A stretch of 64,000 bases of DNA from Chloranthus sessilifolius (Eukaryota > Streptophyta > Magnoliopsida > Chloranthales > Chloranthaceae): assembly GCA_021018995.1 (NCBI GenBank), contig CM037589.1:8695001-8759000 (forward strand), read 5' to 3'. The notes beneath the pieces are model-generated. The model ran no database searches. It was given only the letters and a program-made list of their open reading frames with translations, and had not been told where the DNA came from. A program made the translations under genes and the position numbers. This document shows, piece by piece, positions 23,988 to 57,699 of this stretch (the first letter of the stretch is position 1; every line of letters starts with the position of its first letter).

Positions 23988-23989
<2 letters not shown>

Positions 23990-25120: not shown

Positions 25121-25128
25121 GTATTGGG

Positions 25129-25806: not shown

Positions 25807-25916
25807 ACTCAAAGGGCTACTAATAGCAATCCCAAATGGTGTAGGCCACCCGACGGAATCTAGAAAATGAATGTTGACAGGCCTGGAATAGAACAGCCAT
25901 CTTTGATGGTATTGGG

Positions 25917-26928: not shown

Positions 26929-26936
26929 GTATTGGG

Positions 26937-27340
26937 GCAGTGATAAGGGACTTTGAGGGTCTGGTGCTTGGATCGATGAGCAGAAGCTTTCAACGCACAT
27001 GGGACCTGTTACACACAAAATTGTTTACTTTATATGATGGGTTGTGTTCGCCCGCGATACTAGGTTTGCAGGACATTATTCTTGAAAGTGACTCCCTTAA
27101 TGCTGTTAATCTTATTAACAATGCTTCGGAGGACCTTTCTATGTTCTTTATGCTAGTACATGATATAAAGAATTGCTAGGCATCTTTTAAATCTGCAATA
27201 TGTAGACATCTAAACAAGGAAGCCAATTCAGTGGCTCGCGCTCTTGCCAAATTTGGTTCCAGCAACGATGTACCTCATGTGTGGTTAGAGGAAATTCCTT
27301 TATCTTTTGAGCACCTTGTTCTCTCTAATCCAATTTAATG
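26937..27340 (+). pseudogene. LINE-1 RNase H domain, unit 3 copy
   Basis: Collinear with the other two copies. An extra base near GGTTTGCAGGAC (about 27064-27075) brings DFEGLVLG.. and DIILESDS.. into one frame, but a stop follows at about 27178 (KNC then stop). Confidence 0.8.
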
Positions 27341-27423
27341 AATTGAATTATTTGCTTTTAAAAAAAAAAAAACATGTTTAATTGGGCTGAGACATATGCC
27401 AATGATAAATTATCACTTGGGAA

Positions 27424-28037
27424 TAGGGCTCTCAATGGGTTGGGTTGGGTCGGAATTTGGCCCGCACCCTGCCCGAAAAAAGTAGTACTTTCTATCAAGC
27501 AAACCCGGCCCGGTATCCTGATCGGGTTAAACATTTTATAAATCGGATAAATTCGTGCCAGGCTTGGGTTGAGTGTTTCAACACCCGGCCCGCACCCGAC
27601 CCGGATATATATATATATATACTTATCCTTTTAAAGTTATAAAAGAAATTCCTTTTAATTAAATATAATTTACTTAAGTCCGTTATAATCATTGTGCAAC
27701 CGCTGTCTGTTATAACCATTGTGCAACAAACTAAAACGAAATATGTGAATAAAATCATGTACCTAAGCCTTTATAATGTTAATATAATTATTTAATTAAA
27801 TTTTTAACCTACTTCAAACTTTTGTTAGTAGAAAAGAAGTTTAAGTCCAACCAAATTTTATTAGAAAAAAGGCTGAAAAAACCTTGAAAAAATACCCAAG
27901 TCCGGCCCAGCCTGGTATGGGTCGAACTTAGGCTAAGTACATCGCAGCTCGAGTTAGGGCCGAGCTGAAAATTTAAAAAACCCGGCCCGAATATATTAGG
28001 GCCGGGTTGAACCCTTCCCAACCCATTAAGAGCCCTA
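27424..28037. mobile_element. Non-autonomous hAT element (hAT-2), complete
   Basis: Starts TAGGGCTCTCAATGGG and ends CCCATTAAGAGCCCTA, a long inverted terminus. It is flanked by CTTGGGAA (27416-27423) and CTTGGGGAA (28038-28046), an 8-bp hAT-type duplication with one extra G. The interior has no transposase and is rich in CCCGGCCCG/GGGCCGGGTT words at both ends. It inserted just downstream of the LINE-1 poly-A tail. Confidence 0.85.
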
Positions 28038-28357: not shown

Positions 28358-28831
<474 letters not shown>

Positions 28832-29353: not shown

Positions 29354-29815
29354 GACTTGTGTTACTACCATGCCACTTTATTTTGTAGCCACCTCACTTA
29401 TACAAAGGAAAAATTCGTTGACTGCTTTAAATGAGACTGGTGATCCCTTTTTCGTCCCAAATTTTCACGCTAGATCTTGAGATCATGGACTTACTATCAG
29501 ACCGTCAGATATTGATTCCATATGAGACACATCCCAAAAGGTGAATGTGAACCAGGTTTGATGGTATGCTTTGATCACCTTCACTTTTTGGGATATGTGT
29601 CAACGTTGAATCAACATCTTTCTAATAGTAAGCCCATGATCTCAAGATCATTTGTGTGGAACATTGAGATGAAAAATTATCTCCATTATTTGAATAAAGT
29701 AGTCAACAAATTATCTCCATTATTTGAATAAAGCAGTCAACATTGAGATGAAAAAATTTTCCTCTGTTTAAGTTAGGTGGGTGTAACATAAAGTGGTTTG
29801 GTAGTAACATCAGCC
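29354..29815. mobile_element. Foldback MITE (Harbinger-like family, copy 2)
   Basis: About 460 bp, with both halves inverted over nearly the full length. The ends contain TGTTACTACCA and TGGTAGTAACA. Inner blocks are GATCTTGAGATCATGG on the left and CCATGATCTCAAGATCATT on the right, then ACACATCCCAAAAGGTGA against TCACTTTTTGGGATATGTG-type words. TAA lies just left; the right flank starts TTT, so the target duplication is unclear. Confidence 0.75.
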
Positions 29816-31229: not shown

Positions 31230-32745
31230 AACGTGAGATGAGAGTGACCAGCGCTGTTCCATATATATAGTTTTACAAACAACAGATTTCCCTGATCTTG
31301 TGAGATCAGTTACAACAAATATTCAAAATATTTGAAGCATACAACAAGGTTGACAAACGGAAGGAGGCCACAGTTCGTTGTGAATAGGAGTTGAACATTA
31401 TTGAGATAAGGCCTGGACTCCTTTGATCAGATCTTTAGGGAGGTGGTTTCAATCATCAATTGTAGATAAGGAGTGAACTTTGTTGACTGTAGAATCACTG
31501 ATATCTTGTAATCTGGGATCTCATGATTCTCTAATATGGCCCCTCAAATTGAGCCAAGGAGCAGTGCAAAGGCCCAATTTGATACTTAGAGGAATGAATT
31601 GTGCCTTGGGAAATGGTTTGGTGAAGATGTCCGCAACTTGTTCGCTCGATGTTACAAACTTGGTGATGAGAGTTCCGAGGGCAATTTTCTCTCGGACATA
31701 ACGATAATCCATCTTAATGTGTTTAGTGCAATAGTGAAAGACTGGATTGACCGTCATATATAAGGTTGAGAGATTATCACAATGTAAGATCGGTGGACGA
31801 GATTGATAAAATACCGATATCTCGTAGAAGATAAGAGAGCCAAGTCAATTTGGCAGCTTAAGAAGCCATTGATCTGTCTTCGGCCTCGGCACTCGATTTG
31901 GCAATGGTAGTCTGCTTCTTTGCACTCCACGAGATATAGTTGCTGCCAAGAAACGTGCAAAATCCTGTAGTCGAACGTTTGGTGAGTGGGCAGCCAGCCC
32001 AATCGGCATTCGAAAAACCATGGAGATCAAGAGTGCTTTGCGTATGCGTAAACCATGCTGAAGTGTTCCATGCACATAACGTAGAATTCGCTTCACCGCT
32101 TTATAGTGTGCCATGGTTGGAGTGTGCATAAATTGGCGCACGAAATTGACGTTGTAGGATAGGTCCAGTCTAGTAAACGTGAGATACTGAAGAGCACCGA
32201 CATGACTCCGATAATGAGTTGGATCGGTAAAAAGGTTATGATCATATGTTGGTAGTTGCCCTTTAACAACCATATGAGTGTTGAGAGCTTTGCAATTTTG
32301 CATTTGGGCACGTGTAATGAGATATAGCATATTTGGAATTGACACAAAAAAAGTCCTTGTGAACGTTGAACTTCCACACCAAGAAAGTAATGAAGATCGC
32401 CGACATCTTTGATAGAAAACGAGCAAGAGCTTGAATCAACCAATCCAAAAGAGATGGATTATTTCCGGTGAGAGCCATATCGTCCACATAGATGAGAAGT
32501 AAAATGGTACCACGAGAAGAATGATGAATAAATTAGGACGGGTCTGCAATGTTGCAAAAGAAACCCAAGGTGGGTAAAAAATGACTCAACCAATCAAACC
32601 AGGCTCGTGGTGCCTATTTGAGCCCATAAGTGCCTTTTTAGCTGGCACACATTATCAGGGTGCAGAGGATCCTGAAATCCCGGGGGTTGCTCCATAAATA
32701 TGGGTTCTTGTAAAAAACAGTGGAGAAAAGCGTTTTTAACGTCAA

Positions 32746-33405
32746 GTTGTTGAAGCTGCCATTTACAAGCTACTGCGATCGTTAACACCAAGCGAATACT
32801 ACCAGGCTTTATAATTGGAGAGAAAGTATTGAAAAAATCAACGCCATCCATCTGATTGTAGCCATTTGCTGCTAATGTACTTTTAACCTATCAGAACCTC
32901 CATTAGGTAGTAATTTAGTTTTGTAGACCTAGCGACATCCGACCACATTCATTGATGGAGATCGAGTTGCCGAAGCTGCCATTTACAAGCTACTGCGATC
33001 GTTAACACCAAGCGAATACTACCAGGCTTTATAATTGGAGAGAAAGTATTGAAAAAATCAACGCCATCCATCTGATTGTAGCCATTTGCTGCTAATGTAC
33101 TTTTAACCTATCAGAACCTCCATTAGGTAGTAATTTAGTTTTGTAGACCTAGCGACATCCGACCACATTCATTGATGGAGATCGAGTTGCCGAAGCTGCC
33201 ATTTACAAGCTACTGCGATCGTTAACACCAAGCGAATACTACCAGGCTTTATAATTGGAGAGAAAGTATTGGAAAAATCAATGCCATCCATCTGATTGTA
33301 GCCATTTGTTGCTAATGTGCTTTTAACCTATCGAGACCTCCATTAGGTAGTAATTTAGTTTTGTAGACCTAGCGACATCCGACCACATTCATTGATGGAG
33401 ATCGA
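32746..33405. repeat. Tandem triplication of 220 bp inside Copia C
   Basis: Three head-to-tail units starting near 32746, 32966 and 33186, each with GAAGCTGCCATTTACAAGC near its start and CATTCATTGATGGAGATCGA at its end. Units 1 and 2 are almost identical; unit 3 has several substitutions. It lies within the reverse-transcriptase part of the fossil. Confidence 0.9.
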
Positions 33406-33703
33406 GGAACAAGGTCCCATGTGTTGTTGGCGGCAAGAGCATTGATCTCTTCATGCATTGTAGCAGTCAACCTAACATGTTTTAATGTTGATTTCACTGT
33501 TCGAGGTTCTGTAGGAACTGGTTCAAAGGAGAAAGAGAGGTGAAGGTCTGCATATTTCAGGTTGGATTTGCAGACTCCAGCTTGAGCACGAGTCACCATG
33601 GAGTGAGAGGGTACTAGTGTGGGCTAGGTCTGGAAAATGTTTCTGACGGCATGATAGGGGCCAAGTTCATGCACAACTTCAATTGAGGTTTGGTCAGTGT
33701 TAC

Positions 33704-34207: not shown

Positions 34208-35189
34208 TAATATTAGATTTGGTACTATGTTTCAGGCAAGTGTGGTTGCGCGTTGGTTGTGTTTTTGGGCTCCAGGGAGATCAATTTAGTTAGGTGTTGT
34301 GGACGGTGAAGGCTCAAGTGAGGTAGCTTGGTCAGTTTGGATAGTGCCTTGGGCTTCAGGATGTAATTCAGGATTTTGGACTTGATCATGTGATGGATAA
34401 ATGGGTGTGGCTGAAGGAATTGGTACAAACTCAGGTTCTGTTTGGTTGAGATTTAAACCTTCACATATTTTAGATGGAGCCTCTTCAAGATGTAACCGTT
34501 CTTCATACACGGCCAATTCACCAGTTATTTGACTTTTGCAATAAAGAGACGGTGGATCTTTAAATGGAAGCAAGTCTTCATCAAAAATCACGTGGCGAGA
34601 GATATAGATCTACCTAGTTGGAGGATATATATATATATGCTTGTATCCTTTGTGTTTAACACTGTAACCAAGAAAAACGCAAGGAAGAGATTTGGGATCA
34701 AGTTTAGAGCTGTGATAGTCACCCAAGTGAGGGAAACATTTACAGCCAAAAGTACGCAAAGATGAATAATCCGGATGTCACCCATGTAGCCAAAAGAAAG
34801 GAGAGTCCATATCAATTTGTGGTGAAAGGGAGGCGATTAATCAATAATACTGCAGTAGAGAAACAATCAAGCCAAAAATAAGAGGGGAGCTTGCATGAAA
34901 CATCATAGTTAGTCCCAATTCCGTGATGTTTCGATGTTTTCTTTCTGCTACCCCATTTTGCTTTGGGGGTTTTTGGACATTAAGGTTAATCTTGATCTTG
35001 GCATCGAATGAAATAAAGTTATTATAATGCACAATGCAATAAAAATTTCTGATTTTTTTCTTAAAGGGAACGACAAAGTTGATTCCTTGCTTCGTGACTT
35101 TGGAGAAGAGGGACTATATCCATATAAGAGGGAACATGCGGCTTGAGTATAGTGGCAACGAAGTTTTCGTACCCTTGACCAAGATCATT

Positions 35190-35891
35190 TGATGCAGGGC
35201 AAATCACACGCTAACCCTAAAATAGCATAAATCCCGCACGATAGGTTCTCAATCTTCAATTAAAACAAAAAAATAAATAAAAAGAAGAATATGATGTAAG
35301 ATCTTCGGATTGACTCCAAAGAGTCTTGTTGGCTTCGCACCAACGATAACTTTGAAGAATCACTCCTCAAAGGCGAAAACTCTTCGCAAGGTTTTTACGA
35401 AAGATTCACTCTTTCACAAGATGCACAAAAGCAACTTAATTTTATTTCATTCCTCATTATTAACTACTATAAAGTTATAAGGACCTTATATAGTAAGCCT
35501 AAAAGAAAGAAAGCCCTAAAACAAATCAACACTGAAAAAGACAAGTTTGCCCATAAAACTAAATTTTCATCCTTTGGCGGATATGGCTTTGTGACAAATT
35601 GATCGATCGATTTACAAACTTATAAATCACACGAAGTCGTAGACTACAATCAATCGATCGAAAATTTGGGATCGATCGATCGACTAAGAAAAGAAATTTG
35701 CCAAAAGTTCACAGCACACTACCCTCAATCGATCGATCGAATCTTTGAGATCGATCGATCGACCACAACACGCCCCAAATCTTTACGTCACGGGCCATTT
35801 GAAAGCCCATTTATGGGTCTACTTCTTCCTTACTGATTTCGTTCGTTTGACTCGGCCACAACTTAACCATGCGGATCTAAATTCCTCATCA
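35190..35891 (-). repeat. LTR of element D (3' in its own sense)
   Basis: 702 bp. Contains ATCGATCGATCGA-type palindromes between 35600 and 35763. Confidence 0.9.
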
Positions 35892-36428: not shown

Positions 36429-36656
36429 ATGTTTGAATAGGGAACCATATTGATCGAATGATCAACATTTTTTCTCACACCATAAATTTTCCACATTCGC
36501 CATCTTTTGATGCACAATCAGAATGTTCCACCATTTCACAAACTTTCTCATGGAAATTGTGTAATCGTTCAAATCACGAAGAACTTTGAGAATTTGATCT
36601 TCACTCATAATCGTTCAAATCACGAAGGACATTAGCAACCGGCTTTGATACCAATT

Positions 36657-37348
36657 TGATGCAGGACAAATTGCATGCTAACTCTAAAATAGCATAAATC
36701 CTGCACGATAGGGGTTAGGGTTCTCAATCTTCAATTAAAATAAAAATAAAAATAAAAAGAAGAATAGGATGAAAGATCTTCAGATTTGCTCCAAAGAGGC
36801 TTAATGGCTTCGCACCAACGATAACTTTGAAGAATCACTCTTCAAAGGCGAAAACTCTTTGCAAGTTTCTACGAAAGATTCATTCTTTCACAAGATGCAC
36901 AAAAGTAACTTAATTTTTTTCCATTATTAACTAGTACAAAGTTATAAAGACCTTATATAGTAGGCCTAAAAAAAAAGAAAACCCTAAAACAAATAAACAC
37001 AAAAAAGACAAGTTTGCCCATAAAACTAAATTTTCGTCCTTTGGAGGATCTAACTTTGCGACAAATCGATTGATTGATTTACAAACTTATAAATCGCATG
37101 AATCACAATCGATCGATCGAAAGTTGGAGTCGATCGATCGATTGAGAAATGAAATTCACCAAAAGTTCACAGCACACTGCCCTCAATCGATCAATCGAGT
37201 CTCTAGATCGATCGATCGACCACAACACGCCTCAAATCCTTACTTCATGGGCCGTTTGAAAACCCATTTATGGTTCCACTTCTTCCTTATTGATTTTCTT
37301 CGTTTGATTCGCCCACAACCCAACCATGCGGATCTAAATTCCGCATCA
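36657..37348 (-). repeat. LTR of element D (5' in its own sense)
   Basis: 692 bp. Carries the same cluster of ATCGATCG palindromes (about 37062-37221) as the other LTR. Confidence 0.9.
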
Positions 37349-38411: not shown

Positions 38412-38798
38412 GGGTAACCTTATTAACACCTACGGAATCGTGAAGGGCACCATATGCAAAAAAACCTTTGACTCTTTTGTTTTTCGCCTCCATTCTTGCA
38501 CATAAGTGATGTTGATATCATGGAGTGTACCATCAGACGGTTAGTATTTTATTCACTGAGACACACATCCCAAAAAAGTGATGAAAATTAGGCTTGAGCT
38601 TAATGTGTTACGTGATTTTTATCACCTTTTTGGGATGTGTGCCACGTAAAAATGTATTGTTCGATGGCATGCGTATGATCTCAAAATCTCTTTGCAAGAT
38701 TGGGGTGAAAAACAATCTCCATCGTCTAATTCAAAGCAGTCAATAGGTTTTTGGTGTAGGTACCCTTTACGATTCAGTGGATGTTGGTAAAGCTACCT
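38412..38798. mobile_element. Foldback MITE (Harbinger-like family, copy 3)
   Basis: Left end GGGTAACCTTATTAACACC pairs with the complement of GGTGTTGGTAAAGCTACCT-like sequence on the right. The inner arms carry ATCAGACGGTTAG, ACACATCCCAAAA and its inverse TTTTTGGGATGTGTGCCACG. 387 bp, inverted over most of its length. Confidence 0.8.
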
Positions 38799-38806
38799 AT
38801 TTTATA

Positions 38807-39197
38807 GGGTTCCGTTATTCACAACCCGTGGAATTGTGATTCACCCCATCTCATCTAGCGTGCATGCGTTGGCCAGTGAATCAGACAATGGAGATCATTT
38901 TTCGTCCCAATTTTCCATACCATGGATCTTCCGATTATGGGTGTACCATCAAACAATCAATTTTAAATTACACATGGCACACATCTCAAGCATGATTTTA
39001 AGGTCACTTTTTGAGATGTGTGCCACGTGGAGTAGAAAACTCACCATTTGGTGGAATGCCTATAGTCTAAAGAACCGTTGAGCAGAAGATTGAGATGAAA
39101 AACGATCTCCATCATCTGATTCAAAGGGGGTCAATGCATGCCGGCTGAAGGAGATGGGTTGAGATCACACTTCTATGGGGTGGATATAATGGTACCC
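38807..39197. mobile_element. Foldback MITE (Harbinger-like family, copy 4)
   Basis: Left end GGGTTCCGTTATTCACAACC pairs with the complement of the right end ATATAATGGTACCC. It lies only 8 bases from copy 3. Inner blocks are the same, including GATGTGTGCCACGTGGA and GATGAAAAACGATCTCCAT. The pair may derive from insertion of one near the other's end. Confidence 0.8.
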
Positions 39198-39221
39198 TTT
39201 TCTATAAGACCTGGTTCTCGT

Positions 39222-40000: not shown

Positions 40001-40355
40001 GTTTAAATGTCGGTCAGGACTCAGAGCCATTATCCCTTAATATTGTGCATAATTTGGTCCTTGGAAGAATCCTCGCTCGGCCTTTGACTCCCAACTTTTG
40101 GGTAGACCCGTAACCCAACTCAAAGGTTGGGTCATATGCTTCATGCCGGTAGAGTCAGAGAGCCTTGAAATGATGCGATTTGTACCCTCTGATTAATAGT
40201 GTTCAAATGAATCGCTGACCAGCATGTCGGTAATGGTCCAGATTGAGGCACAAAAAATTTCCTTAGGATATTGTTGATGGTAAAATTTTATAGACCTTTT
40301 TAGTGTGACGGAACAAATGGCACCTGAAAATTTAGCTGTTGTTATTGTTCTGCAG

Positions 40356-40700
40356 GTATCCGAGTGCGGAATGAGGCTGTGGGTGACCAAAGGAGAGAAG
40401 CAGGAGACAGCTAAGGAATTTATAGGGTACTTAAAGCTGTTGGAAGGGGAGCTCGGAGACAAAACTTACTTCGGAGGGGACTTGTTTGATTTGGCAGATA
40501 TAGCTCTCATCGGCTTTGCTCCCTGGTTTTACACATATGAGAAACATGGAAATTTCAGTATAGAGGAGTGTTGTCCCAAGCTGAGTGCTTGGGTGAAGAG
40601 GTGTAATAAGAGGGAGACCGTCTCGAAAACACTTCTTGACCCCCACAAGGTCTACGATTTTGTTGTTGGCGTTCTGAAGAAGAGGTATGGAGTAGAGTAA
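40356..40700 (+). CDS. GSTU: Tau-class glutathione S-transferase, exon 2
   Basis: Encodes residues 106-219 and the stop: the all-helical C-terminal domain that forms the hydrophobic substrate site. Seen: VSECGMRLWVTKGEKQETAK, LLEGELGDKTYFGGDLFDLA with the tau-type FGGD.FG..D core (here FGGDLFDLADIAL), APWFYTYEKHGNFSIEE, CPKLSAWVKRC and KVYDFVVGVLKKRYGVE at the end. It starts in phase 0 after TTCTGCAG and joins exon 1 to give a 219-residue protein, the normal tau GST length. There is no stop or frame change, so the gene looks intact despite the 11.6-kb intron. About 480 bases after the stop the MULE begins. Confidence 0.93.
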   Translation, partial: VSECGMRLWVTKGEKQETAKEFIGYLKLLEGELGDKTYFGGDLFDLADIALIGFAPWFYTYEKHGNFSIEECCPKLSAWVKRCNKRETVSKTLLDPHKVYDFVVGVLKKRYGVE

Positions 40701-41182
40701 AGGAAGAGGTAGAGAATAGTTGATGGATGGAGGCAGATATTTGAATTGGTTTCTCTTTTTGCTTTTGCTTTATTTTGGTTATGCATGGTATATATGGACT
40801 TTTGTCGAAGAGGTGTCTTAGAACCAGTGGGATCTCTGGGGTAATTCTTGTTGCCTGGAACGCCAATCGCTTCGACGAGGTGGATGGGGAGATGGAATGT
40901 TTTATAGAGGTTGGGGATTTCTTGAATAGATGAGAATTTTTGTTTTAATAGGAAAGCATGAGATTTTGAATAGATGATGAGAATTGCTAAGAGCTGCTTG
41001 ATTCCCTCACCTGTTGTGTGGAGTTTTCTTATTTCATTGTTGTGTGTGATTTTTTTTTTTTGGGGGGTCAGCCCCGGGCTTGTGCAGGGCTGGACTGGTT
41101 TCATCCTCTTTTATGTTTTCGCTTGGCAGCCTCTCACTGCCTTTTTTCTCATATTTTCCTTGCCTCCTTTTGAGTTTTGCAA
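40701..41182 (+). other. 3' flank of the GST gene
   Basis: The 3' untranslated region is expected here. No canonical AATAAA signal was seen by eye; the sequence is T-rich around 40745-40800. Further on there is a T9-G6 run (about 41050-41067). The 9-bp MULE target word TTTAATCTT occupies 41183-41191. Confidence 0.5.
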
Positions 41183-42244
41183 TTTAATCTTGGGTTTTTT
41201 GCATATACCCCCCGAGTTATGCTAATATTATAAGAAACCCTCCGAGTTATGAGTATTTATTCTCCAGCCCCTGCTTTTATCTTTCTGTTTCATATAACCC
41301 CCTGCCGTTAACTAGCCGTAACCCAACGTATTTGTTAGGATACTAACCCACAGTAAATATTTAAGTAAAACCGAAAATGCCCCTACAAAGCTTTGATTGG
41401 AAAACGTTTGAGGAAAGAAACCCATCGTTTCCCAAGGCGCTAAAAACCCGCCCAAAAAACCCATCGTTCCCAATCTCCAACCTCCAGCGCCCATCTCCAG
41501 TGCCCTAAACCCTAAACCCTTTGAAGCTCTTCGCCATTTGAAGCTCTCCAGCGCCCGTGCCCTTTGAAGCTCTCTAGTGCCGTTAAAGCTCATCTCCACC
41601 ACCCTTTGAAGCTCTCCAGCGCCTTTGAAACTCCATGGAGCCTTTGATCAGAATACAATAAAGTAAGCACTATAGATTATACATTATTTTAAGAGAATTT
41701 CTTCTCCAGTTTTGCTTATGGATTCAAATATTTTTCTTAAGGAAGAAGAGGGGTTATACCATTTAATTATTCCATTATTCCTAAATGGCAACTTAACTTC
41801 AAATCGTACGGTGGAATTATGAGAAAGGGATTTCATATCTATTCATAATGTTTAGATACTAAAAAAGATGAGATCAATTGAAGAACCTTTTTCTTTAAGC
41901 CAGCTGTACTTTAGACTAGTTTCTTGCTTTAATATTCCCAAAACAAAGGGAAGGAGATTCTGGGATAATGCTGTATGTAGGGTAGAAGCCAAAGGCCCAG
42001 TTATTCAAAGTAATTAGCAAAAGGTACTCACAGTTATTCTTCAAGGGAATCAAAAAGCATTGAAAGCAGGGAAGAATATGGCTACCTGAATCAGGAAAAG
42101 AGTAGGAAAGAGATCAGTCAGAATCCCACCAGGAAAATTCAAATATCATGAGATTAAGAAACTATGCAGAATTGCCGATACACAGCCACGATCATATGTC
42201 ATCTTCAATTCCAGGAACCTTGTGACATGGAACTAAATTTTTGT

Positions 42245-42380
42245 CACTACAAAAAATAAGACTATTAGTAGCAGCTAAAAACTGCTCCTATTAAAAAAAA
42301 AACTGATGCTATTAGTCCTATCGCTACTAAAAAATGCCTTAACAGCAAGTGCCGCTCAAACACCTTATTTTTATAGAGTG
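42245..42380. mobile_element. Short CACTA-like MITE
   Basis: Starts CACTACAAAAAATAAGAC and ends CTTATTTTTATAGAGTG, whose complement is CACTCTATAAAAATAAG. 136 bp. It holds GCAGCTAAAAACTGCT-type subterminal words. Flanking triplets are TGT and TTT, a 2/3 match. Confidence 0.5.
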
Positions 42381-42423
42381 TTTGAATAATAAACATTTAC
42401 CTTAATACTAATAAACATGCACC

Positions 42424-42885
42424 CATAGTCACAAAAATCGCCGATTTATTGAATAATTCGCGTTTTTTGTGAAAAACGAACAAAACACAAATAGTTCGCG
42501 ATTTTTTGAAAAAATCGTCAAACCACCGAAATTCGCGAATAATTCGGCAAATTTGTGAAGTTCGCTGAGGTCGGCTTCCTTTGCAAGCAACGCCTTATTA
42601 TTATTTTTTCACAAAATTTATGGTAAATAGACTAGTAATTTACTCACCAGTCACCACAGCTGCTTGTTTTGTTAAAGCCAATGGAGAACCCATTAAATAG
42701 GTGGCTAGAAGAGTTGGCTTTTCTTGCCTAACCGATGTGGGACTAAATTTTAGGTAGAAGTGTAGAAAATGTAGTGTAAACGTGAATGGGTACAGCTGTT
42801 GCTTTGTACAATGGATCTACTTTTTGAGTTTTTATTCCCATGGAGCCACCCACCATGTTATAATGGTATCAGTATTTTAAATATT

Positions 42886-42933
<48 letters not shown>

Positions 42934-43030
42934 TTTTTTTTGTATTGTTCCCAAACTTCCCGAACTTTGCCAAATTTTTTTGGATTTTAACTTTGCCGAA
43001 TTATTACCGAATCTCGATTTTGTGACTATG
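42424..43030. mobile_element. hAT MITE, 607 bp
   Basis: The ends CATAGTCACAAAAATCG and CGATTTTGTGACTATG are inverted, and the flanks are an 8-bp duplication CATGCACC/CATGCACT (42416-42423, 43031-43038). It contains a (TA)n run (about 42890-42928) and no transposase. It inserted into the MULE upstream of its transposase. Confidence 0.85.
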
Positions 43031-43304
43031 CATGCACTGATACGTATCGGTATCAGTCAATATTTAATACCATGCTTTTTACCAATACAAGTTGTCCAAG
43101 TGGCTAAACATGAAGACATATCATTACATGGTGGGAAGTGCATTTTTTTGGGTCTTGGCATAGAAATTTTTGGGCAAGTTTTGGGTATTGATTCACATAA
43201 AATGGCTAGAATAGAATTGAAAATACATGTCATACATATCATTGCATTCTACTCTTTCAATGTTGCTAATTGGCGTATTTTCTATTGTTCAGTAGGTTAG
43301 AAAA

Positions 43305-43832
43305 ATGTCAGCCGATTTTGATGGGCACGTGAGGATTAAAGTACATTGGGGTGGTAAATTCATTAGTCGAAAAGGCCAAAATAGCTATATCGGTGGGAAG
43401 TGCGAGGAGGTGGCATGGGATCATGAGCGCGCATCATACTTGGACATGCTAACCGATGTGATACAAATATGCAATTGCTGTAAGGAGTATATTCCAACTA
43501 TTCAATACATTCACAGAGGTACAACCCTCAGTGAGGAGTTGGTGACTGTTCTGACGGATAAGAACCTGATGTGCATGTTTGAGAGACATGATATGAAGAA
43601 AACCATCAACATCTATGTCAACTTTGAAGAACTTCCAGATCCACTTACCACATATCAGTCAGACATGAATATATCTGATGCGAACTATGAAGACGAAGAG
43701 TATGATGATAGTTATGTCAAAGAAGAGTCTTTAGACGATAATGGTACATCTATGGATGGAGGAACTAAAATAAATTCGGAGCGAGCCGACGAGTGGTCTC
43801 ATTCTCCAGTTCCGAAAGTGAGGATGAGATAG
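43305..43832 (+). pseudogene. MULE transposase, N-terminal PB1-like region
   Basis: Opens MSADFDGHVRIKVHWGGKFI and runs 175 residues to an acidic tail (EDEEYDDSYVKEE). Plant MULE transposases often open with such a PB1-like, lysine/glycine-rich module (V.V...GGKF......Y.GG). The frame is lost at about 43790, where the acidic region continues in another frame (SSSESEDEIDDDDKD). Confidence 0.7.
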
Positions 43833-44101
43833 ACGATGATGACAAAGATGTCGATCTCGAGAGGGCTATTGTTAACGAGGAGAAGGCAAAACTAATTTTA
43901 CGAATCGGTATGATGTATGATTTAGTTTATGCATTTCGAGATGTGTTGACCCATTTTGCGGTGGCGCATGGGTTTCAGTTGGAGTACATAAAGAATGAAA
44001 AGAGTAGAGTTACAGCTAGATGTACAGATACAAATTGTCGTTGGAGGATCCATGCATCTATATATGCAGATAATACGACGTTCCGAGTCAAGACATATTA
44101 G
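43793..44101 (+). pseudogene. MULE transposase, MuDR DNA-binding region
   Basis: After the acidic stretch it reads RIGMMYDLVYAFRDVLTHFA, then HGFQLEYIKNEKSRVTARC and CRWRIHASIYADNTTFRVKTY. This is the MuDR/FAR1-like zinc-binding N-terminal DNA-binding domain (C..C.WRI.A pattern) of Mutator-type transposases. A stop follows RVKTY; the expected next motif (EEHTCERCNRNGNR) continues immediately in the same frame after the stop. Confidence 0.8.
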
Positions 44102-44109
44102 GAAGAACA

Positions 44110-45430
44110 TACATGTGAGAGATGCAATCGTAATGGGAACCGAATGGCAAGTGCGAGATGGATATGCTAACGAATTGAGGAACAAGTTCGTGATGATCGG
44201 GAGGTGAAGATAAAGAAGATAGCTAGATGTTTGTTCAGGGATTATGGAGTAAATATCCCATATCATCGCATATGGCGCGGCAAGGAAATGGCCTTAGGAC
44301 AAGTATATAGGTCTTTTGAAGATTCATATAAAGTGCTCCCGTCCTTCTGCAATGCAATACTCCAAACCAATCTGGGGAGTATTGCGAAACATAAATTAGA
44401 ATAAGGGGCCTTGCAGAGGATCTTTATTTGTCTTAATGCTTGTCGCATTGGATTCTTAAGTGCATGTCAACCCTTCATAGGATTGGATGGATGCCATTTA
44501 AAAGGGAAGTACAAATGTTGTCTTCTAGCCGCGACATGTTTGGACGAGAATCGCGGATTATATCCTTTAGCATATGGGTGGTTGAGATAGAAAATGAAGA
44601 GTGTTGGGGATGATTTTTTGAGCAGTTACAATTGGCGATTGGATTTCCCAACAATCTCGTTTTTTATGTCAGATAGGCAGAAGGGCCTAATAAATGCTAT
44701 AACGAAGATATACCCATCTGCTGAACATAGGTGAGATAATTAACATTCAATATTATTTATTTCTATCATGGTTTATTCATTGTTGACATTCATTACGACA
44801 TGCTAAAGAAAGTACCATATTTTTCAGGTTTTGCGTACGTCATCTCTATAAAAACTTCATATCATTATATAGGGGTAAGGCATATGAAAAGTTATTTTGG
44901 AGTGCCGCAAGGGCCTATGTGAGACATGAATATAGTACCCACATAGATGCCATTAAGAAAAAATCAGCATATGCAAGATTATGGATCAAAGAGGTAAAGG
45001 GATATTGGAGTCGAGCAATATTCCACGAAGGGGCCAAGTGCGATGTGATTACGAACAATCTTTCTGAATCTTTCAACAATGCAGTTTCAGAATCTAGGTT
45101 CATGCCTATCACAGACATTGTTGATAGTATTCGTTCACTCATTATGACAAGGATGCAGGCTAGGCGTATGGATGCAGAAAAATGGTCAGGTATTGTTGTG
45201 CCATCGGCTATGGCCAAGTTAGTGAAGTTATGTGAAGAGGAGAAAGAGTGTTGGATTCACTATGTAGGTGTGCACGAATTTGAGGTGACTCAAAGTACCA
45301 TTCTTGGTAACTTCAGACATACCATACTCGTAGATCGTTGGGCGTGTACTTGCCGAGTATGGCAATTATCAGGATTACCTTGCGTGCATGCAATGTCATG
45401 TATTATACATGAAAGATTGAATCCTGAATA
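44110..45430 (+). pseudogene. MULE transposase, catalytic and SWIM zinc-finger region
   Basis: Motifs in order: FICLNACRIGFL, FIGLDGCHLKGKYKC (first catalytic Asp, about 44480-44506), SDRQKGLINAI (second Asp, about 44669-44689), SAEHRFCVRHLYKNF, NLSESFNNAV, and the SWIM-type CTCRVWQLSGLPCVHAMSC near 45350-45400. A likely intron (44731-44827, GTGAGA...TTTTTCAG) splits HR from FCVRH at the position conserved in plant MULEs. Several stops and frame changes lie upstream of the intron (for example after HKLE at 44402 and around 44590-44660), while 44919-45431 is open. Non-functional as it stands. Confidence 0.85.
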
Positions 45431-45469
45431 GTATTGTTCGTATTACTATAGAGTGGATGTCTACAAGCT

Positions 45470-45855
45470 TCTTTACCGAGAGATCTGCCATTCCTTGTGA
45501 GATAAATTTTTTTGGCATCGATCTGATATTATCTGTAAGCCACCACATGCATGTTGGCCACTTGGTCGACAAAAAAAAAATAGAGTAAGAGGGGAAGACG
45601 AGCAACCATCTACTTAGACCAAAGTACAATCTTCGAAGAAGTGCTCTAATTGCAATAAGGGTGGGCACAATCGGAGGAAATGCAAGGATCCTCCAGTTAG
45701 ACGCCACCAAGAAAATGATGAGGGACCCTCAAGCATCTCTGAACGTGGCCTCGATTCAAGCGGCCATGGACGTGGACATGGCTCGGCTTCAAGCAACTCT
45801 AAACGTAGCTCAACTTCAAGCACTAGTCGTGGACCTGTTTGGGGTTGAAATATGG
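45470..45855 (+). pseudogene. MULE transposase, C-terminal zinc knuckle and SR-rich tail
   Basis: After the SWIM region the sequence reads a CCHC knuckle CSNCNKGGHNRRKC (about 45642-45683), then a Ser/Gly/Arg-rich tail (SSGHGRGHGSASSNSKR), ending with a stop near 45850. This knuckle is the usual C terminus of plant MURA-type proteins. The frame differs from that of the SWIM block, so at least one frame change separates them. Confidence 0.7.
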
Positions 45856-45869
45856 AACATTTAGTGGGT

Positions 45870-47510
45870 TTCTGTTGATGAGTTTTAAAAACTTTTTATG
45901 TTGATGTGGTTCACTGCTTTTCGGGTTATTCACAATCACAAGTTGATTGTGCATTTTTAACACTTTTTATGTTGTTGCTTTTTTGTTAGTTTTTATGCTG
46001 ATGTGGTCAACATTATATGTTGCTATAGTTGACATTATATGCAGCTATGGTCCTCATTATTTGATACTATGGTTTTCATTATATTATGTTGTGTCCTCAT
46101 TGTTTATGCTGATGTGGTTCTTATTAACTGTGGTCCTCATTTTCTAATGCTTGTTTAACACTTGGGCGTAAGTATTTTCGATGACCCTATTCATATGCTG
46201 TATTTTACAATTTTTGTATATTTTTTAATCAATGAAATAACATTTGAAGAGAATTGCTAAGATCAATTTGTAGATTCTATCTGCATATGTACTGATTTTA
46301 CCATTGATGCTACTTTGCTTATTCAACTATTTTTTTATATTTTTAGTTTTTGTGTTGCGATTAGTAGTCAATGGATACAATTTTTTCTCTGAAAAATTAG
46401 CCAAATAGCCAAATCCGAGACCAAAATATACCTCTTGCGGGTTCAGAATTCTCACCATCTAATTTGTCAATAGTGCAATGCATATCAACATTTGTGTTGC
46501 TTCCAAACTCACATGTTGGGTAAAATGTGGAATGCTCTGTTTTAAAATGGCTGTCCAAACAGCACCTTATCAGCTACTCATGATTTACTCTCCGATCTAA
46601 CTCTGCTTCTTTGACAGATCTTCAAGGTCTAGATCTAACTCTGCTTCTTTGAAGCCTGTACAGGATAAGCTGGCTTCTAATATAAAACTGCTTTATATAA
46701 GATTTGAATTTATATGTAAATAATTTTATAATTTATATTATACATGTAAAAGGTTTGATCCAATTAGACTATTTTGCACTAGTACCATCCCCTTAGCAAT
46801 TCAGACTCCGGCCTGGTTTGCAAGACACTGGTTTTTTAAACACATTTTCCATGTATGTGAATCTCTCTGTTCTCTTTTCCTTCATCTGTCTTTCTTATCC
46901 TATAGTAAAAAGCTGAAGAATATGTGGCATTAGAGAAACATGTCCATAATTTTCTATCCCGGATTTTTTTTTTTAGAGTGTGATTCCTTTTTATGATATA
47001 GCATTCTATTTCAATCTTTTTCAGTTTATCCCTTCCTCATTTCAGATAGAGATATCTCTTGATCGGTTCATTTTCAGCACCCATTTTGTCATCTGAGCAA
47101 TAAAAATTTGTGCAAACAATGATGACCTGTGCAATTGTTTAAAAATTGCATCCATTCATAACTTTCCTTAGATCTGTGTGACGTAGAATTCTTATTTTTA
47201 TGAAATCAGATGTTCTTATGGATTGTCGGATGAGGGATTTGGTTTGAAGCTGTTCTTGACATGTGAAAAATCAGCAAGTTCTTTGCATAATTAGGTCAGT
47301 TATGATGTTCTAAACTTTATGAAAAGTCAGTTTAGTTAAATCATATGCTGGAAGGATATTTCTGGCTGTTATGAATGCCTGAATGCTTGATGTTTGTCAT
47401 TCTATATATTCAAAATAATATAGAATTCCAAATCTTGTTAAAACTTTTGAAAAAAACAGAAGGGAAAAAAAGAAGGAAAAAAAACGTGATAGCTGATACT
47501 TCGTAGACAA
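45870..47510. other. Non-coding AT-rich part of the MULE
   Basis: Repeated TTTATGCTGATGTGGT-like words occur between 45890 and 46140. No coding motif, terminal repeat or RNA gene is recognised in the remainder. A short direct repeat GATCTAACTCTGCTTCTTTG lies at about 46596 and 46632. Confidence 0.5.
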
Positions 47511-47513
47511 ACT

Positions 47514-47735
47514 CTAATTCATGGGTATTAGACAAACTAATAATGCTATGACAAGTGATGTAAATGTGATGGAAGTGGGCATCTTACCCTTGTCCCGGAG
47601 GAAAAAGAGCCCTTGGTAGATGGGTATATTGGTGAAAACCAAGAACCCACAAAGAAGAAATTGCAAGGCTAATTGCCCCACAACCATGCTTTTACTACCC
47701 ATCACTACCTTCCACATAGAAAACTCCATGTACAT
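47514..47735 (-). pseudogene. Unrecognised hydrophobic frame in the MULE
   Basis: A 73-residue minus-strand frame with two strongly hydrophobic stretches (VVGQLALQFLLCGFLVF and ITFTSLVIALLVCLI). It could be a fragment of a membrane-protein exon carried by the MULE, or chance. A 22-base word from this frame (CATGCTTTTACTACCCATCAC) recurs inverted at about 48347-48368, so this part has been internally duplicated. No family is recognised. Confidence 0.2.
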
Positions 47736-48470
47736 TGTTATTTTTCACTTTTGAGATATCTTCATGTTCACGTAAGCTAGCAGCATCAAGTTCCTCATGG
47801 CCCTGTCTATGAAAAGGGGCCAACCTTAGATTCAGCAGCTTGCAATAGAAAATGGCAGCCGAAAAATATATCTAGAACAATATTTAAAAGATTGTGAAAA
47901 AATTATTTATAATTAATGTTGGCTACAAGAAATAGGATAGTTTTTCACAAGAGGCTCAATCTTCTAGCATCATTGTAGTACTTAACTTCGAGTTTAAAAA
48001 GCAATAGATATAATTACTAGCCTTTCTTTCTTTTAATGCATTTGCTTACCAATAAAAATAAAAAATTAAAAGAAAGTATATAGCTGTTTTTTGGAACATG
48101 CAAGTCAATATCTATAGGTATAAAGTGATTTATATTGGTTTTGAGATTGGACCTTTGACCCGATGGTGATGCCCTCAAGCGTGTAGCATTAAGGTCAGGG
48201 GTGCCAATAAAAAATATAAAAATATTTGTATTGGTTTTAAATAGGATTGACATGCCTACCAGCTCCTCACTTTCTAACATCCTCCTGCTTCAACATGGCT
48301 ACCACCAATTACCAAGATAATTGGTCCAAATATCATGGATTGCAGTGATGGGTAGTAAAAGCATGGATTGCAGCAGGTTTGAGCACTGTCACCCAAATAT
48401 CATCCATACATGTTTATTATCTTAATATATATATATATATAATAATTGTGAAACTGACAATAGCAGATTA

Positions 48471-49370
48471 GTGAATTTTGGTGAAACTCTAGCTGTATGG
48501 CTTCTTACTGCCATATCAAGTCATGATAACAAAAGTAAAGTTGCCATTATGGAGGCTGGTGCAGTTGAAGTTCTCACTGATAAGATCTCACAATATTTAT
48601 TCCAAGCTACACATGTAATTCACAGTTTTAGCTGTTTATTCATTTTCATTTGAGTAAATATATTTTTCATGACTCATTAAGTGCTTATCATCATTGTAGA
48701 GTCCTCTCTTTACTTACCTTTTAATTCTGCAAAGCGATTCTAAAGAAGATAGCAGTACATGGGTTTGTGCTTTACTGCTCGCAGTTTTATTTCAAGATAG
48801 AGATATCATTCGGGCACATGCAACCATGAGATCCATTCCCACGCTATTTAATCTGTTGAAGTCAGAGGAGTCTACAAACAGATTTTTTCAGCCCAAGCAC
48901 TGACCAGTCTTGCCTGCAATGGTAGCAGAGGAACTCTTCTTGCTGTAGCCAATACAGCCCAAGTATCTTTCTCTTGGTCCACAAGACATAACAGAAGAAG
49001 CTGGAGCTAGAGCTGGAGTTGGGCCCTTGCTGTTGCAGATGTTGAAATGAATGCGGTTGATGTCCTTTGCCGTATTCTCTCTCTCTCTCTCTCACCAGGC
49101 CATTGAACATATACCTTGTCAATTCAAGCAGTTCAACAATTAGCAAAAACTCTTATCACTTTACTGGATTCACCAATTCAAGCAGTTCAACAGTTAGCAG
49201 CTGAACATCTCCCCCAACTTCTCTTGGAAGAACATTTACAAAAAGACAACAAATCAGCAAGCCATTGGTCCCTTGATTCGAGTTTGTGGGGCTGGGATAC
49301 ATATTCTATAGCAGAAAGTTGTGTTCTTGGGGCTGGGATACACATTTTTCTTTTTGTACTATTGTAAAAA
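48471..49370 (+). pseudogene. CSI1: Shuffled exon fragments of a CSI1-type armadillo protein, inside the MULE
   Basis: Plus-strand blocks match, from memory, segments of cellulose synthase-interactive protein 1 in order but with large gaps: ETLAVWLLTAISSHDNKSK and IMEAGAVEVLTDKISQYLFQ (48480-48615); after an intron-like gap, [20 protein letters not shown] and [20 protein letters not shown] (about 48749-48870); SLGPQDITEEA (about 48970-49000); ALAVADVEMNAVDVLCRILS (about 49026-49080, running into a CT repeat); and DSPIQAVQQLAAEHLPQLLL (about 49167-49230) with EEHLQKD. CSI1 links cellulose synthase complexes to microtubules. The intron-like gap and collinear order suggest DNA-level capture with internal deletions, not a retrocopy. 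Non-functional. Confidence 0.75.
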
Positions 49371-49592
49371 GACGGTGCCAATGTTCGAATTATAGCCGAC
49401 ATATTTTTCTTTTTGTACTATTGTAATTCTTACTTTTGATTCAATTGAGTATCATATTTTCCCAAAAAATTTCCCAATCATTTTCCCTATTTTACTTTTA
49501 TCAAAACGTCTATATTAGCAAAGCTTCTAGTGGGCATCTCCTTGTTTATAATGTCGGTATAAACATGGCAGTGACAGTTTTTTAGTGGTTGC

Positions 49593-49796
49593 CACTATAT
49601 TGATAACTTAGCAGCAGCAGTTGTAAAAACTACCGCTAATACCCTTACCGGCAGTTGTAAAAACTGTCGCTAAAACAAAGTAGCAACAGCCTCAGTAGTA
49701 GCAGTTTTTACAATTGCTGATGAGGGTATTAGCCGCAGTTTTTTTGTTAATAGCGGCAGTTTTTGGCTGCCGCTAATAGTCTTTTATTTTATAGTG
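49593..49796. mobile_element. Short CACTA-like MITE with AGCGGCAG subterminal words
   Basis: Starts CACTATATTGATAAC and ends TTTTATTTTATAGTG. The interior is made of GGCAG(T/C)TTTTT/AAAACTGCCGC words in both orientations. The right end is very similar to the left end of the element at 42245. Flanking triplets do not match, so the exact ends are uncertain. Confidence 0.5.
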
Positions 49797-50268
49797 ACAT
49801 TCTCTTACGCGTTAGGAAGTTGGCGGAGATGCATTCTCAGACTGGTTACCAGCAAAGCTACATCAAGCTACTGGGCCGCTTCGGTGATAATGTACAAGAA
49901 ACGAGTGGAGAAATAAGACTCACAAAACCGATTGATAGAATAAGGCTGTAATTACAATGATGATTTATGTACTCTAATATACCTGCTTGTGTATGTTTTT
50001 TGAAAAAATAGGATGGTCTGTGACAAATCGTTGGATTGCATTGGGGTTTGATTGGGATGTGCATTGTCGGTATATTATGTGTACACATTGTAATCGTTTT
50101 ATTTGGTTGTTGATTTGGGTTGCTCGAACTACAGTCCTGGAATCTCCGCGTAAAAAATATCTACCTAAAAAATTGTGGTGTTTTTGTGACTGTTTGATAA
50201 TCGCTACATAATGTATGAATTATTCAGATAATCTCCCTTGTAGATAAAAAATAAATAAATAAATAAAG

Positions 50269-50377
50269 CACTATACCGACAGCTCATTGCGTATGTATCC
50301 TCCGGCGAGGACATTGCTGACGACTGCAAGCCGTCGGCGTAATCTATGCCGACTGATAGGAGACCTTTTTTATAGTG
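50269..50377. mobile_element. Very short CACTA-like element
   Basis: CACTATACCGACAG at the left and TTTTTTATAGTG at the right, 109 bp, with CCGACGGCTTGCAG-like words inside. Only 7 bases of terminal repeat are clear and flanking triplets differ (AAG, TAA). Confidence 0.4.
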
Positions 50378-50451
50378 TAATGAACCTCATCATTTGCCGA
50401 TTTCAATTAAGTCGATTTTGAAAAGCCAGGAAACACCAGAACGAGGCCTAA

Positions 50452-50935
50452 GTGCATCTTGAGATCATAGGCGTACCATCAGACAATCAGTGTTTTATTT
50501 TGTGGCACACATCTCAAAAAAGTGACCTTAGTATCACGTACACGGTTAAAATTAATTTTAAGATCACTTTTTGGGTATGTACCACATGAAATAAAAAACC
50601 AACCGTCTAAATGGTGCCACCATGAAGAGCTTGGGCTATCGTGTGATACGTTGGGACAATAAACGATCTCCATCATCCGATTCAATGCAGTCAACCGTCT
50701 GATGGTGCCACCATGATCTCAAGATCCATCGTGTGAAAGGTTGGGACGATAAACGATCTCTATCGTCCGATTCAATGCGGTCAACCGTCTGATGGTGCCA
50801 CCATGATCTCAAGATCCATCGTGTAAAAGGTTGGGATGAAAAGCGATCTCCATTTTCTGATTCAATGCAGTCAATGTTTTTCAGTGTGGGTGAACTCAAA
50901 GATTTGGTGGTTGAATTTAACGATGCGAGGGCACC
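50452..50935. mobile_element. Foldback MITE (Harbinger-like family, copy 5) with a triplicated right arm
   Basis: The inner region CACATCTCAAAAAAGTGA against TCACTTTTTGGGTATGT is family-typical. The right arm block (ATGGTGCCACCATGATCTCA ... GATTCAATGCGGTCAAC) occurs three times head to tail, starting near 50611, 50702 and 50792, a period of about 90 bases. The right end is GCGAGGGCACC. The left arm starts only at GTGCATCTTGAGATCATAGG, so the left terminus is lost. Confidence 0.75.
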
Positions 50936-51029
50936 AACTCATAATCACATGTAGACGGTGGCAATACTCGGAGGGTTTTTTATAATATCAGCATAACTCG
51001 GGGGTATTTATAAAAAACCCTTTAATCTT

Positions 51030-53380
51030 TTCGCTGCCGATCCAAAAAAAACAAAAAACGGCTTTGTACCATGTAGAAAATTTTAAGATCGAGAAAAAGG
51101 ACGATGGAGATAAAGTCTTTGTACCATGTAGAAATTTTAGACAACATCAAGAAATTGTCTAAAATGAGTCGACGGCTTATTGCAAACTCTTCCTAGATAA
51201 TGAGTTGATGTCTTGTCCAGCTATGCATCCATACAAACTTTGAATATGCAAGCTTTCAAATCATGTGTTAGAGGTTGCTTGTTCATGATACTAATAGAGT
51301 TGTAAAGGGGTTCCGTTTGTGTTGGATCTAATTAGTTTCAACCATCAGTCCAAAAGCAACCTGCTTCCAAAACCTGCAACTCTCTGAACCAACCTCATTC
51401 TCGTGCCAACTAGGGCTTCTTCGGAAGAAAACTGCGATTGAAAAATATCCTTCGAGTTGAGTTATTTTGTATATTCTTTGTTTTAAACTTGAAGTTTAGT
51501 AAAACTCCTACTTATAAGAAACTTATATATTTCTCCAAAATGCCATAAGAAACTTGAAGCACCTAATTTCCTCCCGATAATGTTTAAAAATAAGATTTTA
51601 CCAATCTACATATACTAATCATTATACTATCATATTACTGTTGGCAGTTAATAGTGAGAGCCTCCATAGTCCGTACTCTCCTTTTCTTTTAAGAGTGGAC
51701 GATGTGACATTGAATCAACGGCTTCAATATCAAATTGGCTAATATTTTTGTGACAATGTAATATACTGCTTCGCTCGATCTGCTATCAGATCGATAGCAG
51801 ATTTGATAGCACATTGCTCGATCTAATAACAAATTAGATATACAAATAATTAATTTTTCAACATTAGTGCTGAAAAAAATTGCACACCTGTCATTTCTTG
51901 ATAATGTTCAATATCAATGAGAATCTGAGCAAAAGAGACGGGAAAGTGAGTAAAAAAAAAGCGAGAACAAAAGTGGGCAATTTGGTCATTTGATGGTGGG
52001 TCGAATACGAGCCACCAACCTATCTTGCAAAATTTGAAGCTATGGAGCTGTTTTCACAAAATCTGAAACTATGAGGGCCCCAGAGTACAATTTCCCTCGG
52101 GCAATGACCGTCTGTTTACCCATTAAGGTTTGAAAGTTACCGAGCGAGCCGGTCGTAAATCTCAACCTTAAAATGCTTAATGGCCAACTTCCATTTCGAA
52201 CGGCGGTCTCTTAAGAAGTAGGGTTTTACTTGGCTTCTCTTCTCCTCTTCATAGGTACGCTTACTGTTAGGGGTTTACACCTACCTGCTCAGATTTTTTC
52301 TCTGTTAGGGTTTTGATCTGCTGTTCATTTAATTTTTTTCTATGTAATTTGTTACCACCATAAACCCTAGTTCCAGTGTTAACATGGATCATTAATCGCG
52401 TGTTTTTTCGGCAAGTATTTATTTATATTCCTCGGTCAACCAAATGCGCGATTGCAGGTGGTTAGGTTATCGTTGATGATTCAATTGTTGTTAAATTAGT
52501 GTTTAGATTATATTTTATAATTTGATTGTTGGTAATTTAGTTTTGAACAAAAAATGTTTTGTTTTTGTGAGCACGGATTTCACTGTTTTCACAAATTTTA
52601 AATCTTTTGGCAAGAGATCATTATAATATATGTTTAAAAAGGGCCTAAGCCAGCCTAAGAGATGGCTATGTGCCATTTGCTTATGCCATTGCATAAGCGA
52701 TGATACAATTTTTAAATAAAAAAAATTTAAAAAGATGGGAAAATAGTAAAAGAAAAAATATATAATTTTTTTTTTTTTTTGAAAGGAAAGAAAAAATATA
52801 TAATTGAACTATAAGTGTAGCCAATTATTTTTTTAGCCTTCTATTTTCAATTTCATTATGATATAATATGCTTACTTGTTTAACTATAATAATGCAATTG
52901 GAGCATCAGAATGTGATGGCATAATGAAAATTATGGCTTCCGACATACTTTATATGTGATGGCTTGTCATAATGTTACCCAAATTATAATGAGCCTTTGG
53001 GATACATTAAATGCTTTCGCAAATCATGATGCGAAATGAGGTAAACCAGCTGATTTGGGAGCTGGGTTCTATCATGTGGATTTGAAAAGTCAAAAGAATT
53101 CTTATGTATTAGTTATGACTTACGATCCCCCCAAAGTATGATGAGCCTAACTTTTTGCTCCATTAATGCCTAGGTGTTTTTGGAGTATTGGTTGGTCTTT
53201 ATCAATTGATGCACGAGCATTTCCTATAATATTGGTCATATTGATACCCATGATCATATGTGCTCCCTTGAAATTGAAACATTAGCGACGAAAATGGCTC
53301 AGTGTAATAGATAAAGGTTGGTCCTCCAAAAATTTGACCAACGAAGTCATTGGCTTGGGGTAGGTTGGTTGAGGCCGATA
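51030..53380. other. Unassigned region with a possible leader-exon relic near 52200
   Basis: No coding region is recognised. Around 52195-52255 the sequence GTAGGGTTTTACTTGGCTTCTC and the pyrimidine tract that follows end in TTCATAG|GTACGC, and AGGGTTT words recur at 52270-52320. AGGGTTT (telo-box complement) plus a pyrimidine-rich leader and an early donor site is typical of 5' regions of plant ribosomal-protein-type genes, but no coding exon follows. At 52720-52800 there are A- and T-runs. Confidence 0.35.
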
Positions 53381-56369: not shown

Positions 56370-57128
56370 ATGTTTCTAGACATCTAGAGGTTCGAATCTT
56401 GAGATTCAATGATTCCAATGTTTTCTCATGTGGAGAAGAATTCAAGGAAGAAAACTGCATCCAAATATGATGCAGGGAAGACTCTAAGGGGAGCTCCAAA
56501 AAAAAGGGTGCATCCCATGCTTTGTGTTGGCATGGAGTAAACCCTTAAGTCCCTAAAATAATAATGAATGGGGGAAGGCACAATCTGATACCAACAAAGG
56601 AGAAGTAATAGGAGTTACAGCTCAAGTAACCAAGCAAATAAATGCTTCAATGAAATTCAAGTATTCCCACCAGCACTCAAGTTGAGAATAACAATTTGCT
56701 GACAGAAACAGATTCTTCATATTTCTTAATTAAACTACCAGCGATAATGATCCAGTGATATTGAGATTGTGCTAACCAACCAATCGGATATCTACGTTTT
56801 CCCCTCTTGAGAATCTCGAGAGCTGCCTTTCTGTTTCAAGATAAAGCATATAAAATCAAAGAACCAAATAGATACTCTAGCTGCCTTTTTCCGTTTTTCA
56901 GATATACTAGAAGAAATATGAGAGCCCATCAGGTGCAGTGGCGGACGCAGGATTTTCTTGAATGGGGGGCACGTGTAATCATTATGTCATCTGGCCCACA
57001 TTTGTAATCAATCTAAATTGTCCAAGTGGCAATCTATTATTTGAACATAGTTCAGCTCACAGAAACATGCTTATAAGTGGATATGAACTATTCGATTGAT
57101 GAACTTGAATATCCGGCATGAAACATAA
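56370..57128. other. Unassigned region
   Basis: No gene is seen. At 56938-56960 GCAGTGGCGGACGCAGGATT is a word common at the ends of several plant repeat families, but no second end was found. Confidence 0.4.
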
Positions 57129-57557
57129 GGGTACCTTTGTTTACCTATAGGAGTAGTGAGGGCGCCTACTTCTGAAACCCACTAAAACTCATTGACTAAT
57201 TGGAATCAGATGGAGATTGCTTTTCACCTCAATCTTTCACATAGGGATGTTGAGACCATGACCGTACCATCAGACGGTCCATTTTTATTACACGCGACAA
57301 ATGTCTCAAAAATGTGTCCCTAAAATCAAATGGCACACATCAAACTCAAGCTTAATTTTAGGGCCATTTTTGGGAATCTGTGCCACATGGAATAAAAATA
57401 CACCGTCTGATGATAAGCTCATGGTCTCAAGATCCTTTATGTGGAAGATTAAGCTGAAAAGTGATCTCCATAGTTCGATTTCATGTAGTCAATAGGTTTT
57501 AGTGGGTTTCGGACGTAGGCAGCCTCAGTAATCCTGTTGGTGCGAACAGAGATACCC
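57129..57557. mobile_element. Foldback MITE (Harbinger-like family, copy 6), best-defined copy
   Basis: 429 bp. Left end GGGTACCTTTGTTTACC pairs with the complement of the right end (GGGTATCTCTGTTCGCACC). The flanks are TAA on both sides, the 3-bp duplication typical of PIF/Harbinger elements. The arms contain GAAACCCACTAAAAC(T/C) and its inverse, then GAGATTGCTTTTCACCTCAA against AGTGATCTCCAT. It adjoins LINE-2. Confidence 0.8.
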
Positions 57558-57699
57558 TAAAACTAAAAACAATGATTGATATTAAAAAAAAAAATTGATC
57601 GGTAAAATGCATTGTATTACAAACCAGCAAGGCGCTGAAGAACAGATACACCGACACAAAAAAAGAGACAACAACTAAGAACAAGCAGAAACGCATGGC

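Follow-up and report, generated by a model that had tools for sequence, protein, structure and literature searches.

A decayed Mutator-like element with mudrA sequence and CSI1-like gene pieces in Chloranthus sessilifolius

As transposase sequence and pieces resembling a host gene lie close together in a stretch of 64,000 nucleotides from Chloranthus sessilifolius (contig CM037589.1 of assembly GCA_021018995.1, positions 8,695,001 to 8,759,000; the window below), we were interested whether both belong to one mobile element and how the gene pieces came to be there. A first-pass annotation had described a complete Mutator-like element (MULE) with its own transposase and shuffled exons of the host gene CSI1.

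We identified MULEs by terminal inverted repeats, a target duplication of 8-11 bp and MuDR/MULE transposase domains, and all three were found here as 56-bp ends, an exact 9-bp duplication and three Pfam families. The interval 41192-51020, 9,829 bp long and about 0.49 kb 3' of the stop codon of a glutathione S-transferase (GST) gene, is a MULE-type insertion. Its left terminal inverted repeat (41192-41247, plus strand, 56 bp) aligned to the right one (51020-50966, minus strand, 55 bp) with 89% identity over 56 columns and one gap. The alignment score was 80, whereas one arm shuffled base by base 200 times reached at most 27; together with E = 1e-12 in a self-BLAST of the window, this confirmed the matched ends claimed before. 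The exact 9-bp target duplication was recovered as well, with TTTAATCTT directly outside both ends (41183-41191 and 51021-51029). On the plus strand of the window it occurs at 41183 and 51021 only and its reverse complement once, at 18222; given the base composition, nine matching bases at fixed flanks would arise by chance with a probability of about 7e-6. A 12-base core of the ends, with one mismatch permitted, was found within the window at the two ends only. Compared to the 100-500 bp usual for MULE terminal inverted repeats according to the available part of PMC4858842, the ends of 56 bp are shorter. The left sub-terminal arm (41248-42241, plus strand) is C-rich at 41420-41660, which may be the 5' leader of the transposase, and an open reading frame (ORF) on its minus strand had no Pfam match.

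By its content, the window is plant nuclear DNA. The GST gene upstream was recognised from GST_N (28427-28741) and GST_C (40305-40700) in Pfam searches of ORF pieces, and appears to be interrupted by a repeat-filled intron of about 11.5 kb. Copia and LINE remains, named from our reading of ORFs, and MITE-like repeats are also present in the window. A copia-type element at 14190-21491 with LTRs of about 480 bp (95% alike) appears in our reading to interrupt a LINE; its flanking 5-mers, TTCTA and CTCTA, are one base apart, and no exact 5-bp duplication was found around it in the scan. Further repeats are a unit of about 1.83 kb present three times head to tail at 22130-27621 (copies 95% alike, with junctions at or close to (AT)n tracts), three tandem copies of a 220-bp unit at 32745-33406 (98% matches) and a direct repeat of about 710 bp at 35187-35891 and 36654-37348 (86% alike, 1.5 kb apart), possibly representing LTRs.

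Within the MULE ends, a mudrA-type transposase pseudogene was located at 43305-45848 on the plus strand. When it was scanned against Pfam in four pieces, with stops read as X, DBD_Tnp_Mut (E = 1.4e-15), MULE (E = 2.5e-8) and SWIM (E = 1.5e-6) were each detected above the curated cut-off, in agreement with the MuDR-type blocks noted earlier, and neither the N-terminal nor the C-terminal piece had a match at this level. In our own reading, mudrA contains a GT-AG intron at 44731-44827. It shows a frame change near 43.8 kb and six stops (44099, 44168, 44402, 45429, 45498 and 45615), with one further stop at 44588 or 44611, depending on the frame chosen near 44.6 kb, and the final stop at 45846. 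This copy is dead, a pseudogene, and because of the six stops, the additional stop and the frame changes the element is not autonomous as it stands, an intact transposase being absent. The statement that the element combines its own transposase with host pieces between one pair of ends was therefore right about the location of both, and needs the correction that the transposase is now a pseudogene. A search for an inner inverted pair around mudrA yielded only an A+T stretch (score 29; shuffle mean 25.9, maximum 32), and of three pattern matches to the transposase stretch 44817-45428 in viral contigs, by description a non-plant collection, none was confirmed.

About five CSI1-like pieces, collinear and oriented like mudrA, were detected downstream of it, with three stretches missing. 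They look like parts of a cell-wall gene and were named by comparison to a provisional Arabidopsis CSI1 reference sequence, so that CSI1 and its paralogues are not separated by this name. tblastn with the C-terminal region of this sequence gave ordered matches between 48444 and 49323 with a best E = 2.5e-17, while the best of 20 shuffled queries reached E = 0.15. Against the provisional reference, the collinear similarity is thus beyond chance, and the ordered blocks with gaps of the first-pass annotation were reproduced. Behind piece 1 (48471-48614, plus strand, as are all pieces) lies a spacer of roughly 110 bp (about 48615-48726), previously called an intron-like space; it does open with GT, and no in-frame acceptor could be fitted. 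Piece 2 (48727-48956) includes the best match (48727-48888) and changes frame near 48886. Piece 3 (48961-49002) has 12 of 14 residues identical, and as its E = 0.20 is not below the value for shuffled queries, it counts by its order only. Piece 4 (49017-49082) was again found by tblastn, and piece 5 (49101-49323, with 49101-49140 assigned by eye) shows a frame change and a 26-bp partial duplication (49120-49145 and 49174-49199). In our reading of the alignment, about 105, 95 and 200 residues are absent between pieces; no more than 4 bp lie between pieces 2 and 3 and 14 bp between pieces 3 and 4, despite the loss of about 105 and 95 residues at these two points. Whole exons, shuffled or not, are unsupported by pieces that change frame and carry a partial duplication. 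The N-terminal half of the CSI1 reference matched the window at chance level (best E = 1.8). For four of the pieces, no Pfam family passed its cut-off (one match, E = 0.27), and a PDB search gave seven matches up to E = 10, of which the best had E = 0.0019 and the first three were designed repeat proteins; the CSI1 name therefore rests on the provisional reference. For relatives of piece 2 in non-plant collections, none of 16 pattern matches in viral contigs and none of 168 in bacterial and archaeal contigs was confirmed.

Besides the transposase stops, nested hAT-type and MITE-like blocks and a second inverted-repeat pair were added to the earlier description, and the interior of the element is a nest of insertions. 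Close to the left arm lies a probable CACTA-type MITE of 134 bp (42245-42378, CACTACAAAAAATAAG ... CTTATTTTTATAGAG, boundaries by our reading), the two ends of which are weakly alike (score 25) and which has a TGT duplication at 42242-42244 and 42379-42381 on the assumption of a change in one end base. It is followed by an insertion at 42424-43030 with ends CATAGTCACAAAA(A)TCG, which we read as a non-autonomous member of the hAT superfamily and which is flanked by CATGCACC and CATGCACT, agreeing in seven of eight bases. The unassigned interval between mudrA and the CSI1-like pieces (45849-48470) contains degenerate 22-bp repeats at 45994-46084 and an inverted pair (47684-47714 and 48336-48366) adjoining a repeated CATGGATTGCAG. 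As no fitting duplication was seen at this inverted pair, we prefer filler DNA to a separate transposon, and the pair is perhaps templated filler. To the right of the CSI1-like pieces follow a CACTA-like block (49549-49796; left boundary uncertain, no matching duplication), a possible short MITE (50266-50378, CACTATA ... TATAGTG; weak, with a self-alignment score of 18) and a palindromic MITE-like copy with a 90-bp tandem repeat inside (50449-50891, boundaries approximate), members of whose family were also found in the window at 29412-29712, 38477-38751, 38806-39198 and 57128-57558. None of six further ORFs of 90 aa or more within the element reached the cut-off of a Pfam family, Rfam gave no match over 41000-51200 at gathering scores, and a simple hairpin-plus-CTRR scan detected no Helitron-like 3' end.

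From the ends, the duplication, the transposase domains and the collinear pieces, the locus is probably a formerly transposase-bearing MULE with CSI1-like pieces, either carried along or gained later, which arose by repair and were followed by decay. A MuDR-type MULE with transposase would have inserted about 0.5 kb downstream of the glutathione-transferase gene, an event that left the 9-bp duplication. The ends, this duplication and the mudrA sequence are observed, and we infer that mudrA and the ends once formed one unit. The pieces, likewise observed, would have been brought in by the MULE or acquired afterwards, most likely through template switching or error-prone repair of a gap within the element, with subsequent deletions and a small duplication. 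This route is suggested by collinear pieces with gaps, the frame changes, the 26-bp partial duplication and the filler-like inverted repeat nearby, and gap filling with template switching has been published as a capture route for animal TIR elements (PMC8277862, in the part available). Decay would have followed, with stops arising in the transposase and with the observed hAT-type and MITE-like insertions presumably entering at this stage. The explanation is favoured by the presence of one set of MuDR domains, oriented like the CSI1-like pieces, and by the nested hAT-type insertion with a near-duplication of its own. Around the CSI1 stretch (45849-48461 against 49330-50440), inverted repeats did not exceed chance (score 26; shuffle mean 26.6, with 40 of 60 shuffles equal or higher), nor did direct repeats (score 30; mean 27.2, 12 of 60 equal or higher). 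Most likely, the element is now a fossil without present function.

Against this explanation stands the second inverted pair (42242-42314 and 49727-49799), which also encloses mudrA and the CSI1-like pieces and, with 73 bp at 84% (E = 7.6e-15), is longer than the MULE ends. It consists of the left end of the MITE beginning at 42245 and the right end of the block ending at 49796, and its arms score 113 with each other compared to 25 and 70 for the ends of either MITE alone. One could therefore think of a CACTA-type element of 7.55 kb (42245-49796) that captured the mudrA stretch together with the CSI1 pieces and now lies within a MULE remnant of about 2.3 kb, all the more as host fragments captured by CACTA elements are described in the available parts of PMC8903248 and PMC2528002. 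Examined as a Pack-CACTA, however, this interval has CACTA-type inverted ends and no 3-bp duplication, since the flanking triplets are TGT and ACA, and no CACTA transposase domain was detected in the stretches scanned with Pfam (four of mudrA, four of the CSI1-like pieces and the six ORFs of at least 90 aa). In addition, a candidate right end belonging to the left arm lies at a distance of 134 bp, with the matching TGT duplication if one base change is permitted, so that the 73-bp pair can be accounted for by two MITEs of the same family. As the triplets outside the pair differ and the left MITE may be complete in itself, two MITEs are more likely than one CACTA element of 7.5 kb, and we consider the latter unlikely.

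The timing of the capture is a closer matter. In a variant that overlaps with the MULE explanation, the element was free of CSI1 DNA when it landed; the pieces would have entered through later repair of a break inside it and never transposed. The rearranged, shortened and partly duplicated state of the pieces and the inverted filler-like repeat at 47684-48366 would fit, as would transposition-independent gap filling, for which single-copy animal cases are given in the accessible text of PMC8277862; no sequence feature, however, dates the capture relative to the insertion, and we give this variant a substantial chance that falls somewhat short of even. That the pieces are instead the remnant of a local CSI1 gene, invaded by the MULE and other elements, would agree with their collinearity, yet the intact 9-bp duplication brackets them and both halves of the CSI1 reference matched the window outside the element at chance level (E of at least 2.3 and at least 1.8), which makes this origin very improbable. 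Hardly better placed is the idea of a working regulator that forms antisense or small RNA against CSI1. Captured sequences can serve as siRNA reservoirs, a general precedent only, taken from the available part of PMC13317346; here, however, the pieces lie in sense orientation to mudrA, the element is decayed, and no copy of 48471-49323 in inverted orientation appeared at E ≤ 1e-4 in the self-BLAST of the window (63 rows), so that transcription would have to come from the right end to yield antisense RNA. It would be more daring still, and scarcely credible to us, to assume that a mobile, transposase-bearing MULE lineage captured and multiplied the CSI1 pieces and that antisense RNA from its right end tuned cellulose deposition before the lineage died.

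Pack-MULEs share with this element the MULE ends, the target duplication and internal pieces of host genes. They are non-autonomous and free of transposase fragments in the excerpted text of PMC4858842 and PMC8903248, in line with the first-pass statement that they usually lack transposase. Here, host pieces (as judged by the provisional CSI1 reference) and transposase sequence both lie inside the ends, and as Pack-MULEs are defined without transposase in that part of PMC4858842, the element is not a Pack-MULE. The occurrence of both within one element is not exceptional according to the available parts of PMC2528002 and PMC13317346. Transduplication is described as common in all grapevine class II superfamilies, MuDR-like and Jittery-like families of grapevine carry ULP1 sequence beside the transposase, in some of them downstream, and a grapevine MULE family holds cellulose-synthase gene sequence (all from the accessible part of PMC2528002). 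The likeness of the ULP1 families to our element is the host sequence alongside, and in some cases downstream of, the transposase; the difference is that those are families with a protease domain or cellulose synthase as host gene, whereas one decayed copy with CSI1-like pieces is present here. ULP1 cases from Arabidopsis, grapevine, melon and rice are mentioned in the available text of PMC13317346, and the Arabidopsis KI-MULEs (Kaonashi) and the ULP1-MULEs of melon and rice combine mudrA with a host-derived coding region as in our case (parts of PMC2528002 and PMC13317346). KI-MULEs are there described as lacking terminal inverted repeats and retaining a conserved coding domain that runs opposite to mudrA, in contrast to the terminal repeats and the broken pieces in the same orientation as mudrA found here. 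Among open-licence papers we found no CSI1-carrying transposon.

In sum, the element is a MULE in decay that holds transposase sequence together with host-gene-like pieces, a combination that is already known and not exceptional. It adds one more case of host-gene sequence in a MULE with transposase sequence, a class which at least one survey removes by design, as elements with transposase similarity are dropped there (PMC4858842). It also illustrates that, where insertions are nested, one pair of ends can give the false impression of a single tidy element. In all other respects it displays ordinary plant transposon decay.
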